Assembly (NCBI GenBank): GCA_903904835.1
Contig: CAIVEI010000102.1
Location: 24,070-88,069, forward strand
Reading direction: 5' to 3'
From: an uncultured Schlesneria sp.
Lineage (GTDB): Bacteria; Planctomycetota; Planctomycetia; Planctomycetales; Planctomycetaceae
DNA: 64,000 nt
A model generated the notes under the pieces. The model had not been told where the DNA came from and made no database searches. It saw nothing but the letters and a program-made list of their open reading frames with translations. The number at the start of each line of letters is the position of its first letter. The first letter of the stretch is position 1. Both the position numbers and the translations under genes were made by a program. Below are positions 36,219 through 41,023 of this stretch, piece after piece.

Positions 36219-38348
36219 TTAGCCATTCTTCCTGAGAAATAATGAGACCGCATCCATTAATCGAACATATTGTCCACGACATTCTGGCCACATCGACATG
36301 GCTTCGTCGAGATCCCCTTCTGCGGCAGCTTTTTCAAGCCGGGACATCGAAGCACAAGCCAGATGACCACCAACATTGTCCGCCGAAGACTTGAGCGAAT
36401 GAGCCATACGACGGGTTGCCGTTTGATCTCGTTCGTTTAAGTGAGTTTGCAAGCTTTCAATCCAATCGGGGCAAATCTGAATAAACATCTCAGCGATCTG
36501 TTGAAGCAGGTCTTCGTCGCCGCCGACACGCTCAAGGGCCGCAGCACGATCAAAAGCATCGCCCGTGATCACAGGCGTTTCGACGACACCGCTTGCGAGC
36601 TGTGGTGTTGTTGAGTCTTCAATCGGTGCTGAAATCAGAGCTTGAATCTGTTCAAACAATTCTGTGCGGTTGATGGGTTTGGTGGCAAAGTCATTGCAAC
36701 CGGCGTCGGTACATTTCTGGCGGTCTCCCTGCATCACGTTCGCGGTCAATGCCAGGATCGGCCGAGTCCATCCGCGAGCACGAAGTTCGGCGGTGGCAGC
36801 GTACCCATCCAGAATCGGCATCTGCATATCCATCAACACAATCTGGAAGGGATGGCCATCGGAAATCGAAGCGAGGGCAGCATCAACAGCTTTGCGCCCG
36901 TTATCGACGATCGTGACGTCGGCTCCGAGTTTGCGAAGGAACGAACCGATCAACAGTTGATTGTCTGGGCCGTCCTCTGCCAGAAGTATGCGTCCTGACA
37001 ATCTCGCATCGGCTGATCCAATGACGGGAGACGCCAGTTTGCCAATCGACGACGGACGATCATGCCACTTCGCATCAACGATGGAATCCGTCCCAATATG
37101 TACTCGAAACGTGCTGCCGACACCTTTTTGACTCGTTGCAACAACGTCGCCACCCAGCATTCTTGCCAGTCGACGGCTGATTGAAAGACCCAGGCCAGTC
37201 CCTCCAAACCGTCTTGCCATGGATTCGTCTGCTTGCATAAACGGCGAGAATAATCGGGCAAGTTGCTCGTCTGACATCCCGATACCCGTATCGACAACGT
37301 CGCATTGCAGCCACAGTTGACGATCCTGGTTTGCCGCTCGACACACGTTGCCATTTTCATCGAGCATACTCATACGCAGGCTGACGTGTCCCCGTTCCGT
37401 AAACTTGATTCCGTTACTGATCAGGTTCATCAGGATCTGACGCAGTCGAGTTGGGTCGCTTTCGATCAAATCCGGAATCGGGCCGTCATAGATCAGTGAC
37501 AGTCCAATCTGTTTCGAGGCGGCACGGACTTGCAATGCCGAGATCACATCCGCCGCCAATTCGCCCGGCGAGAACTTCAGTCGTTCAATCTCTAATCGTT
37601 CTGCTTCGATCTTCGACAAGTCCAGGATGTCATTGATCAATTGCAGTAGATGATGACCATTCCGCAAAATCGTCTCGGTTGCCGCAGTTCGTTCGTCGGA
37701 AGTGTAATCGGGATCGAGCAGGTTTTCGGCGAATCCAAGAATCGCCGTCAGCGGAGTCCGAATCTCGTGACTCATATTCGCAAGAAAGAGACTTTTCGCA
37801 CGATTGGCCGCCTCGGCGACGTCGGCTTGAGACCGAATCGTTTCGTTTGCGAGTACCAGCAATTGAGACTGTGCAATCAGCAACGTGTGCACGTCGAGCA
37901 ACCGAAACTCGCTGACATCCCGGACAACGACCGGTTCGTACACTCGGTCAGCCGGACGATGCAGAGCAGTATGTGCTGCTTCGCTGACCAGCATATCGCT
38001 CGGTAATACAAGAGGGTCATTCCGCTCGGCTTCGAGCAATAATCGAATCGGGCGCTTTAAGTAGAGGTCTTGCCCGAATGGTCGTGACAGTTGAGCGAAC
38101 AGCATCGGACGAGAAATCATCCCCAGTAGTTCGCTGCCTGAGGCGATCACGACGCCGGGAACGTCAGGAGCCGATCCGAGTTCCCGATCAACGACGCTGG
38201 TCAACATCTCCGGGGAAACAGTAACTTCAAATGACGGAATTCCCCCGAGCGTTGTCTCCGCTGTCAGCGACTTTAACCACTCCCGCGCCGAGATATCGCC
38301 CGTCAAGTTCATGTCGTCATCGATCAGGTTGTATTGTGATTCGTTCAT
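36219..38348 (-). CDS. Hybrid histidine kinase with receiver and HPt domains
   Basis: A 709-residue sensory kinase. The first 170 residues resemble a CBS/GGDEF-associated sensing module (PGVVIASGSELLGMISRPML); no membrane helix is seen, so it is cytoplasmic. Then come HisKA (FLANMSHEIRTPLTAILGF, phospho-His), HATPase (DTGIGMSDEQLARLFSPF, FGGTGLGLSISRRLA), a receiver domain (LMDMQMPILDG, phospho-Asp) and a C-terminal HPt domain (MAHSLKSSADNVGG). A full phosphorelay is thus carried on one chain, presumably ending on the receiver-ATPase protein encoded next. The signal is unknown. Confidence 0.92.
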   Translation of the reverse strand: MNESQYNLIDDDMNLTGDISAREWLKSLTAETTLGGIPSFEVTVSPEMLTSVVDRELGSAPDVPGVVIASGSELLGMISRPMLFAQLSRPFGQDLYLKRPIRLLLEAERNDPLVLPSDMLVSEAAHTALHRPADRVYEPVVVRDVSEFRLLDVHTLLIAQSQLLVLANETIRSQADVAEAANRAKSLFLANMSHEIRTPLTAILGFAENLLDPDYTSDERTAATETILRNGHHLLQLINDILDLSKIEAERLEIERLKFSPGELAADVISALQVRAASKQIGLSLIYDGPIPDLIESDPTRLRQILMNLISNGIKFTERGHVSLRMSMLDENGNVCRAANQDRQLWLQCDVVDTGIGMSDEQLARLFSPFMQADESMARRFGGTGLGLSISRRLARMLGGDVVATSQKGVGSTFRVHIGTDSIVDAKWHDRPSSIGKLASPVIGSADARLSGRILLAEDGPDNQLLIGSFLRKLGADVTIVDNGRKAVDAALASISDGHPFQIVLMDMQMPILDGYAATAELRARGWTRPILALTANVMQGDRQKCTDAGCNDFATKPINRTELFEQIQALISAPIEDSTTPQLASGVVETPVITGDAFDRAAALERVGGDEDLLQQIAEMFIQICPDWIESLQTHLNERDQTATRRMAHSLKSSADNVGGHLACASMSRLEKAAAEGDLDEAMSMWPECRGQYVRLMDAVSLFLRKNG

Positions 38349-38690
38349 GAGGTTCAGCCACGTTCAGTTTTTAACACGGCGAGCTGAGGCGATCGGATTG
38401 TACTCTTCAATCATGCTGGTCTACCAACCTGCAGAAAATGATGAAGAATTGATGAAGATTTGAAGAGGAGGGCACGATCGATGAAATCCTCTCGACATCC
38501 AGGCGAGCCGGGGATGTCAATCCCAGGATTCTTCTCCCCGACTGAAACCAAACAGTCTAAAAACGCAAAAGTGTTGAAAAGAATTTAAAAAAATTCAAAA
38601 TAAAATGAAACATGAGCGACTTTCAAGTCTTCTGATTAGCGAAAATGAGTGCTGATCAGTGTTCCGATCTTTCTCTTCGTCGTTTTCAGC

Positions 38691-39225
38691 TTTGAGCAAC
38701 TATGGCGGCGTTTGCGCAACATTGACGGAAACCAGGCGTTTTTCGATGTTTCGGTGGTACGGACACTTGCGCAACTATGGCCAAGCTTGCGCAACGATGG
38801 TTGCGCGACGCTGGCGAGCCGGTAGCGGAGTCTCCTAGCCTCCGATCTCGAACGACGAAGTCAGTTCGACGTTGACGGAGTTTGAGCAACTCTGGCGGCG
38901 TTTGCGCAACATTGATGGAAAGCAGGCATTTTTCAATGTTTCAGTGGTACGGACACTTGCGCAACTATGGCCAAGCTTGAGCAACGACGGTGCGCGACGC
39001 TGGCCAGCCGGTAGCGGAGTCTTCTAGTCGCCGATCTCGAATGACTAAGGTTGTTCGACATTAACGGTGTTTGCGCAACTATGGGATTTTTGCGAGACAT
39101 TGGTGGAATGCAGGGCTTTTTCGAAATCTCAATGTTACGAACGCTTGCGCAACTATGGACACGCGACTCTGGCAATGCTTGCGCGACATTGGTGCGCGAC
39201 GATGACCGCATTTGCGCAACTATGG
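38691..39225 (+). repeat. Array of TTGCGCAACTATGG motifs in three tandem units of about 190 bp
   Basis: The exact 14-mer TTGCGCAACTATGG occurs at 38767, 38957, 39070, 39145 and 39212, always on the plus strand. At least eight near copies lie between them (for example TTGAGCAACTATGG at 38692, TTGCGCAACGATGG at 38787, TTGCGCGACGCTGG at 38801, TTGAGCAACGACGG at 38977, TTGCGCGACATTGG at 39179). The core TTGCGCAA is its own complement. The array is organised as units starting at 38691, 38881 and 39069; units one and two are closely alike over their whole length, unit three is more diverged. An A/T-rich tract lies just to the left. Confidence 0.9.
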
Positions 39226-39342
39226 AGCCCCTTCGAATTCTCAAAGCAAGAACAGGCTGGTGTCGAGTCTTCGAGACCCCAGCCGAAACGGCTAGAAAGT
39301 TGACCAGAAGTGAGTAGGCCATGAAAACGAATCCATGCCATG

Positions 39343-39443
39343 AATTATCCACTCTTGAGGAATTTGGCGTCGGAAATGACGCAGAGTTCCTTAGGTAAAT
39401 GGAGCGGAAGCTCCTGGCGAGCCGCCTGCGGCGGCTCAGTACT
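39343..39443 (+). repeat. Dispersed repeat, family D, copy 1
   Basis: About 100 bases ending in GAGCCGCCTGCGGCGGCTC, a strong hairpin, preceded by ATGGAGCGGAAGCTCCTGGC. A diverged copy in the same orientation lies at 58657-58760, where the same order of blocks (GGAACTTGGCTTCGGAAA, ATGGAGCGGGAGGTCCTG, GCGGCTCATCA) is seen. Both copies are in spacers. Confidence 0.75.
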
Positions 39444-39520
39444 TTCTCAAAACTACTCTCTGCCGCTTCGGCCCGCCCACCAAAACTTCAAACAAAGCCA
39501 TGATCGAACTCGTCAAAAAA

Positions 39521-39600
39521 GTTGGCCAAGTTGGCAAAGTTGACCAACATCCGTGTTTTATAGGCGTTTTCCAGGTTTGAACTTGGCCAACGTTGTCAAA
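39521..39600. repeat. TTGGCCAA-type nonamer repeat with inverted copy
   Basis: Three 9-base units in a row (GTTGGCCAA, GTTGGCAAA, GTTGACCAA; 39521-39547), then AACTTGGCCAACGTTGTCAA in the opposite sense at 39580-39599. TTGGCCAA is palindromic, like the TTGCGCAA core of the neighbouring array. Confidence 0.7.
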
Positions 39601-40081
39601 TTCCTTCGTTTTTGCGATCTCTTCGGCTCGTCCGCCGTATCGTCCAAACGCATCGTTTAACCGCGCCTCGAAGAGAAGCGAGTTATCCGGAGCAAGGAAC
39701 GAAACCCGAGACGACATTCGCAAAATCGCCGCCGAAACCAAATCGCAGCGAAGTTCGTAAGTAAGCGACTGATCTCCGAACCGCCTGCGCCGTTGGCTTC
39801 GGGTAAAGCGACCAGAAAACATCCCTCATTTTCATTAAATCAGTATGCGACATAAAAATACAAGAGTTTATGTCGAATGTCAATAGGCCTCCGTGAGTCG
39901 TTTCTTAACGTTTGGAATGTGCTCCTTGATTCTGTTTGCGGAATGGTTCCTGCGCTTCCGATCGCCTTTACGCCAAAGGCGTTGCCTATCAAAGACCATG
40001 TTGTTACGGCGCAGGCTAACGGGAGATACTGGTTCTATCAGGCTGACGAGGTCCTGAAACGCCAATCATCGGTTAGATCGA

Positions 40082-41023
40082 TCATCCCTCAATCTTCTGC
40101 ATCACTTCGCGGACTCGTCGTTGTGTTTCTTCATAGACGCATGATGGCTTGAGAGCTTCGAGGACCGTTTCAATGTCTCGCCGCGCTTCGAGTTGCGAGA
40201 TCAGAAAGTTAATCGCTGAAGGATCGCGTGACAGGCCGATGCTGATCAGCAGCGACCGCTGTTGATCTTTATTCCCTGTGCGCTTTAATGCATTGATTAA
40301 CGCTTCGACGGCCGCTGGCTTGCCGCATACGCCGAGAGCGGCGGCGGCTTCATAGACGACGTTTTCTGTCGGGTTCGACAGGAACTCGGCGACGAGCGGG
40401 ATCGAACGCTGCGTTGCGAGGTCGAGCAGGCCCGACATACATGTTCCCATGACTTCTGCTTCGGGATCGCCAGACAGAAGTTTGAGTCGCAGTAATGGGA
40501 TGGCTGATTCGTGCCGGGTGTCGGTTATTGCTTTGACGGCATTGATTCGATCGGATCGCGAACCTTGCAGGTAATCAACAAACGCGGTCAGCTTGTCGAC
40601 GATTCGCAGTTGCTGCGACCGTGCGATGGCGAATGCGCAGCCAGCTCGCACATTTTCTGCGGTATCTTGCGCGTCCGGCCAGCCAGGTTCGATCTGACGA
40701 TACTGAATGGCGGTCAGGTAAAACTCGGAATCGTCGTGATTTAAGTTTCCCAGGGTTTCGATAATCGCCGTTTTTGCCGTGCAACCTTTATCCGCTTTGA
40801 CCGGGTCAGCATGCTCGATCAACCGATTCCAGGCGGCCTGTAATTCCGACTCTAACTCCGTGACTTCGAACTCGCCGATTAACTTAGCTGCCTCGGCAAT
40901 CACGAGGTTTGTTTTGTCGGCAAGATATTTGATCGCGGTTTCGCGGATTTTTTCCGGGTCGCCTTCGGTGCGAACTTCGCGCAGGATGCGAAGTTTTTCA
41001 TCAATCGATTGGCGGGGTCGCAT
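40082..41023 (-). CDS. HEAT-repeat protein
   Basis: A 313-residue cytoplasmic protein (no signal peptide) built of helical HEAT-like repeats, for example YEAAAALGVCGKPAAVEALI and RINAVKAITDTRHESAIPLL. Proteins of this type are scaffolds for protein binding. ATG at 41023. It is next to the toxin-antitoxin remnants on the same strand. Function unknown. Confidence 0.8.
   Translation of the reverse strand: MRPRQSIDEKLRILREVRTEGDPEKIRETAIKYLADKTNLVIAEAAKLIGEFEVTELESELQAAWNRLIEHADPVKADKGCTAKTAIIETLGNLNHDDSEFYLTAIQYRQIEPGWPDAQDTAENVRAGCAFAIARSQQLRIVDKLTAFVDYLQGSRSDRINAVKAITDTRHESAIPLLRLKLLSGDPEAEVMGTCMSGLLDLATQRSIPLVAEFLSNPTENVVYEAAAALGVCGKPAAVEALINALKRTGNKDQQRSLLISIGLSRDPSAINFLISQLEARRDIETVLEALKPSCVYEETQRRVREVMQKIEG

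Follow-up and report, generated by a model that had tools for sequence, protein, structure and literature searches.

REP/BIME elements with their RAYT transposases are mosaic intergenic arrays of short modules with hairpin pairs, MITE-like elements (BOX, RUP) carry terminal inverted repeats and a target-site duplication, and KOPS polarity signals keep one orientation along the replichore. The closest known kind to the arrays described here are the STAR elements of Staphylococcus, for which the available part of the source gives the 14-bp consensus T(G/A/T)TGTTG(G/T)GGCCC(C/A), 32–39 loci per S. aureus genome, a copy number that varies by local expansion and contraction, and no assigned function (PMC3532100). 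BOX elements of Streptococcus pneumoniae have terminal inverted repeats, target duplications and a predicted RNA structure, according to the excerpted text (PMC3049150). The TAACTGA repeats of Beggiatoaceae are, in the accessible portion of their description, heptamers in sets of two to six, most of them located no more than several nucleotides from a start codon; a nucleic-acid-binding protein was proposed for them, and the functions of the neighboring genes were without pattern (PMC4679880).

The array analyzed here is in a spacer between a hybrid histidine kinase gene and a HEAT-repeat protein gene of an uncultured Schlesneria. The window, meaning the whole 64,000-nucleotide stretch of DNA that was analyzed, contains the following features around it:

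36219..38348, − strand: hybrid histidine kinase gene, with its start 343 bp from the array
about 38560..38610, no strand: A/T-rich tract, left of the array
38691..39225, + strand: TTGVGCAACNNTGG words arrayed in one direction, in about 2.6 tandem units of about 190 bp
38692..38705, + strand: word 1 of unit 1, TTGAGCAACTATGG
38712..38766, + strand: 55-bp module of unit 1, a word variant and spacer up to the next word
38767..38780, + strand: exact word, unit 1
38801..38881, + strand: 81-bp module of unit 1, a word variant and spacer, reaching the first word of unit 2
38902..38956, + strand: 55-bp module of unit 2
38957..38970, + strand: exact word, unit 2
39071..39084, + strand: exact word, unit 3
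39090..39144, + strand: 55-bp module of unit 3, whose word is more diverged
39145..39158, + strand: exact word, unit 3
39212..39225, + strand: final exact word
39519..39595, + strand: another word array of this spacer, made of three 9-bp words of the AAGTTGGCC type, a center with TTATAGGCGTTTT and one AACTTGGCCAAC copy, in that order
40082..41023, − strand: HEAT-repeat protein gene, on the opposite flank

A mismatch search confirmed the five exact copies and eight near copies, with one to three changes, which the preliminary description had reported on one strand within 38691–39225. The exact copies of TTGCGCAACTATGG start on the + strand at 38767, 38957, 39071, 39145, and 39212, and the others on this strand comprise two copies with one change (38692 and 38787), one with two changes (38882), and five with three changes (38712, 38801, 38902, 38977, and 39179). 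The entire window contained 18 matches with up to three mismatches, compared to a mean of 5.5 and a maximum of 14 in 100 shuffles; three of the 18 were on the − strand inside the array, due to the self-complementary TTGCGCAA, and two were elsewhere in the window. Tandem Repeats Finder located the repeat at 38691–39187 with a period of 190, 2.6 copies and 81% matches, in agreement with the tandem units of about 190 bp noticed before. The spacer, which had been described as gene-free and 1.7 kb long, extends from 38349 to 40081 (1.73 kb), and its three ORFs (139, 128, and 91 aa) gave no Pfam match. The A/T-rich tract and the near-DnaA box TTATCCACT, one copy at 39345 to the right of the array, were both found where they had been reported. 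The second one-way word array, of the AAGTTGGCC type and with the TTATAGGCGTTTT center, is located 0.3 kb to the right of the first.

A genome-wide motif count, which had been suggested as a check, showed that the word is dispersed but clustered. The own draft genome (G000, a Schlesneria; 8.18 Mb in 211 contigs) contained 71 exact copies of TTGCGCAACTATGG and 143 with up to one mismatch, while the reversed-pattern control gave 2. The words are at no fewer than 36 intergenic places, window included, a number that derives from 100 of the 143 matches and in which a few places may be fragments or duplicates of a single array, because four pairs share identical stretches of at least 60 bp, several of them at contig ends. 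Two or more words are present at 32 of the 36 places, and a 400-kb sample of other stretches added one more array.

When each of 71 stretches from five genomes (527,558 bases) was oriented to its majority direction, all 303 matches to TTGNGCAACNNTGG were forward and none was reverse, with both directions in none of the stretches. Three contigs (C26, C34, and C174) each carry two far-apart clusters facing opposite ways, which shows that the direction of an array is independent of the contig. The arrays are composed of recurring modules of 13–14, 19–20, 54–55, and 80–81 bp, and the common spacings, judged by eye, are off whole helical turns. The array modules are sometimes followed by a tail and a AACCACGGAT repeat; in the stretch L128 after the SpoVR gene of the relative G005 these two modules are present without the 14-bp word, which makes them independent repeats. 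Two arrays at contig ends, L026 and L030, share a terminal stretch of at least 57 bases (…GAGCGTGTCAATAACTTTGAGACAG…) that resembles the end of an insertion sequence located inside the arrays. The length of the tandem unit differs between arrays, being 190 bp in the window, 149 bp in L038, 106 bp in L032, and 187–188 bp in L042, and such array-specific lengths point to duplication in place.

No genes predicted by a simple gene caller overlapped the arrays of G000. The arrays are located both before and after genes, at a median distance of 293 bp to the gene on the nearer side, and the 47 flanking proteins have no common function, the commonest families, DUF1549 and DUF1553, being found in five. 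For these two reasons the arrays are unlikely to belong to a single regulon. There is a weak polarity of the arrays towards genes: in G000 the gene on the upstream side points away in 22 of 31 cases (p 0.03), and in 13 of 16 it is the closer gene (p 0.02), while the corresponding counts in G002 (8/12 and 5/7) and G001 (6/10 and 4/6) were not significant.

The window array is one of at least 36 one-directional intergenic word places, and our tentative reading of the sequence comparisons, to which we assign a probability of about 0.42, is that the arrays act where they stand as clusters of docking sites for a putative sequence-specific DNA-binding protein. This protein would recognize the outer TTG..CAA in combination with the C..TGG side of the word, and its clustering may organize or insulate the local chromosome rather than control one regulon. 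The arrays themselves would grow by tandem duplication where they are located, as the differing unit lengths suggest. The preliminary description had named a cluster of operators for a dimeric regulator among its readings; clustered binding sites are still the reading with the best support, because 11 word positions are nearly fixed and three are loose.

The consensus of the word is TTG-V-GCAAC-NN-TGG, in which 11 of the 14 positions have one base in at least 90% of copies, while positions 4, 10, and 11 are loose. Among 435 words, positions 2, 3, 5, 6, 8, 9, 12, and 13 had one base in at least 97%, and positions 1, 7, and 14 in 93, 96, and 90%, respectively. Position 4 was C in 250 words, G in 92, A in 88, and T in 5, and position 10 was T in 238, A in 124, G in 57, and C in 16. 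As these words had been chosen by fixed positions, the test was repeated with sites chosen by a 41-bp spacer profile derived from many arrays, which had 83 matches in array stretches (29 training spacers included) and none in 800 kb of control. With a shift of the word by up to two bases permitted, the upstream word was perfect at the 11 fixed positions in 50 of 77 matches reaching the profile start and had at most one change in 71, while the downstream word was perfect in 40 of 66 matches reaching the profile end and had at most one change in 53. One of the control stretches, L174, holds an array of its own, of TTGGGCAAC.

The same positions differed in their fate at orthologous places, where position 3 agreed in 112 of 112 comparisons and position 8 in 111 of 111, but position 4 in only 58 of 112 and position 10 in 66 of 106. 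A strict 8-bp palindrome as the recognized feature was rejected, since position 4 is loose while position 5 is fixed. Hence, what is kept site by site is TTG..CAA around a loose center and a one-sided C..TGG. The palindromic core proposed earlier survives in its conserved outer TTG and CAA, but not in its middle, where G is nearly invariant at position 5, whereas C, G, and A all occur at the partner position 4. An observation against docking sites is that the words overall are no better kept than flanks outside the arrays: in 19 partly overlapping orthologous array pairs, with similarity-seeded alignments that may favor words, 1328 of 1528 letters agreed in words (87%) and 4515 of 5242 in the partly coding outer flanks (86%). 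The agreement in spacers was 2753 of 3480, and words were less alike than spacers in three of the 19 pairs.

The distribution among species and at orthologous sites bears on the main rival, a non-autonomous mobile repeat, in which the word would be recognized by a transposase or recombinase and the arrays would have spread in one clade without benefit to the cell; we consider this reading possible but doubtful. The word arrays are limited to a small Schlesneria clade. Across 59 genomes, own included, TTGMGCAACNATGG was counted 109 times in G000, 37 in G002, 31 in G001, 4 in G005, 3 in G010, and 0–2 times in the remainder, with 0–1 matches of the reversed control save 5 in one distant genome. 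Among 14 congeners comparable arrays were present in two only, with a trace in a third. A double-word pattern searched in one genome per species (84,980 species, from which own-genome records may be left out) matched only the uncultured Schlesneria MAGs bin-1599 (G002) and bin-0469 (G001). No account of these arrays was found among the papers listed, which for those containing one of the short words were 15 of 150; the available portion of a study on freshwater Planctomycetes describes no such arrays (PMC6461901).

At 12 of the 36 places in G000, the ortholog of the upstream-side gene is also beside the word in G001, G002, or G005, sometimes with a single word only. The spacer of the window corresponds in G001 to about 360 bp with one exact word, and in G002 to 4.3 kb with an array and also other predicted coding sequence; the additional sequence that looks coding, located between this array and the HEAT gene (L076), resembles an Rpn-type nuclease by eye. 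In G005, the two genes flanking the window array are on different contigs, and the surroundings of the kinase are without the word. At the end of a G005 contig (L134), a perfect tandem of a CGCCTTCGATCGGGTTGCA-containing unit directly follows the ortholog of the gene that precedes the array L038. Three arrays of G000, chosen because they were partnerless, are located after a SpoVR gene, after a methyltransferase gene, and before the gene of an FAD enzyme, and no word with up to two mismatches was found in the equivalent regions of G001, G002, and G005, where the G005 contig ends 135 bases past the methyltransferase gene. These absences show that the arrays are dispensable at these sites in the relatives, and together with the shared places they mean that the family is old enough for sharing and young enough for variation. 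The sites are empty at these three loci, while the spacers are too diverged to place the terminal inverted repeats or target duplications of MITE-like junctions.

The confinement to few congeners and the three missing arrays are observations against docking sites, and both are consistent with a mobile repeat, as is the fact that the arrays sit among other dispersed repeats. On the other hand, fixed word positions next to freely changing ones at orthologous places are unlike an inert inserted copy. No transposase was present among 25 of the 94 families found in the 47 flanking proteins, and Y1 transposases (PF01797) do not track the arrays, as there are 10–15 per genome in G000, G001, G002, and G005 and 1–18 in the other 11 congeners. 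The spread of the arrays is better explained by a mobile repeat than by docking sites, while the unequal fate of the word positions is not.

A generic scan of these genomes revealed further one-way arrays, with the words AGTTCGNNCR (10 bp), AAGTTGGCC (9 bp), AAGTTGATC, AGTTCACCCG, and a 20-mer. Such arrays, with words of the AGTTCGA type, GTCGGGTGAA, GAGTTCACCC, AACTTGATC, and the 20-mer GTTTAGGCAACCATGACAGC, are at L019:3300-3900, L082:3400-3900, L085:5100-5280, L066:2760-2920, and L016:4080-4259. Several of them have a common center with the core TTYATAGGSTTTTG, which was counted 15 times in G000, 23 in G001, 23 in G002, 10 in G005, 0–1 times in the other 11 congeners, and at most twice in 391 other planctomycetes, while the reversed control gave up to 4 matches in individual genomes, and in G000 it gave 2. 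Among 40 distinct core sites of the 71 in the four genomes, 36 were flanked on both sides by at least two words and 39 by one or more, whereas this was so for none of 12 core sites from elsewhere. Around the arrays of G000 (35 stretches, 249 kb) there were 7 clusters of the AGTTCGA type and 11 of the AAGTTGG type, compared to 1 and 0, respectively, in 400 kb taken elsewhere. It is conceivable, though unlikely, that the window arrays are one branch of clade-specific "word-swap" elements, in which a TTYATAGGSTTTTG center is conserved and the flanking word is exchanged between branches (AGTTCGNNCR, AAGTTGGCC, AAGTTGATC, AGTTCACCCG, and TTG-NN-CAA in the window). The spacer center of the window family aligned with that of the other arrays in the same best register in 25 of 49 modules; homology of the two centers was rejected as not significant, since only 7 of the 49 modules beat all 20 shuffles and the profile score was reached by 168 of 2000 column shuffles. 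These shuffle tests leave the link of the window family to the word-swap class no more than suggestive. If such a class existed, the recognition protein and the word would turn over together, in a bacterial parallel to fast-changing DNA-binding specificities.

Neutral minisatellites, that is, functionless copies kept alike by tandem duplication and conversion, are a rather improbable explanation. The array-specific unit lengths and the conservation of words no better than that of outer flanks are in line with it, and so are word variants that are often common within one array, such as G at position 4 in L066 and L081. Homogenization between copies could also be an alternative cause of the fixed positions. 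What counts against neutrality is that conservation falls on the same 11 positions, and variation on the same three, across arrays and species, also with spacer-chosen sites, because duplication without function would not favor some positions over others. The functionless tandem repeat, which the preliminary description had named as the plain alternative, is weakened but retains some probability.

A transcribed structured RNA, attenuator or terminator is very improbable: some spacer modules do contain a small GC-rich inverted repeat, but four folds of three array segments were not stabler than shuffles (z −0.85 to 0.66), 31 aligned 55-bp modules gave no consensus structure, and there was no Rfam match in the window. 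Protein coding was considered because the word, read on the reverse strand, translates to I/N-V-A-Q with changes that look synonymous, and it was rejected because the common spacings (13, 19, 20, 34, and 55) and several unit lengths (190, 149, and 106) are not divisible by three and none of the ORFs has a Pfam match. A single origin or partition site is excluded, and a replication origin, iteron set or partition site of any kind, as suggested earlier from the directional repeats, the A/T-rich tract next to them and the single near-DnaA box, has a negligible probability, as there are 36 or more such places in one draft genome, the GC-skew plot proposed as a check had no switch at the window array, the two DnaA-domain genes are on other contigs (C11 and C171) that lack the exact word, blastn found nothing like the window array among 72,556 plasmid and 50,697 phage records, and the double word was not found in viral contigs.

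Iterons and partition sites are one or few per replicon beside a replication or partition function, while the Schlesneria word is at many places. KOPS differ from it in orientation, given the oppositely directed clusters on single contigs, and CRISPR arrays have unique spacers between identical repeats, while the Schlesneria spacer modules recur. The arrays resemble REP/BIME elements as mosaics of short modules, but their word is a one-way asymmetric 14-mer without a hairpin pair; a RAYT/REP origin is improbable, as PF01797 is present in all 15 congeners without excess in the array carriers. BOX elements, in the part of the source available, are likewise intergenic and modular, contain inner modules that can be repeated, and cluster with other repeats, but they have a predicted RNA structure, while the Schlesneria arrays show no excess folding, and a one-way word is not among the BOX features given there (PMC3049150). 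TAACTGA repeats share with the arrays the many intergenic sets of one short directional word and neighbors without a functional pattern, and differ, as far as the excerpt describes them, in being heptamers near start codons, while the 14-mer has longer spacers and is located farther from genes and also after them (PMC4679880).

The STAR elements are similar to the Schlesneria arrays in their 14-bp direct repeats with few degenerate positions, spacing of tens of bases, and many intergenic loci, although the consensus differs from TTGVGCAACNNTGG (PMC3532100, as excerpted). STAR repeats are interspersed with at least 40 bp, and the common spacings of 54–55 and 80–81 bp at the Schlesneria places agree with this, though spacings of 13 and 19–20 bp also occur. 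According to the same excerpt, STAR spacers are distinct at each locus and no neighborhoods common to species were found, whereas the Schlesneria spacer modules recur, as the matches to the 41-bp profile show, and a third of the places (12/36) are shared, at least by neighbor, with G001, G002, or G005. With 11 nearly fixed and three loose positions, strict direction, places common to species, and presence or absence in close relatives, the Schlesneria word family offers a sharper test than STAR. With their own common center, the other word arrays of G000, G001, G002, and G005 allow a direct test of how words and their readers turn over.
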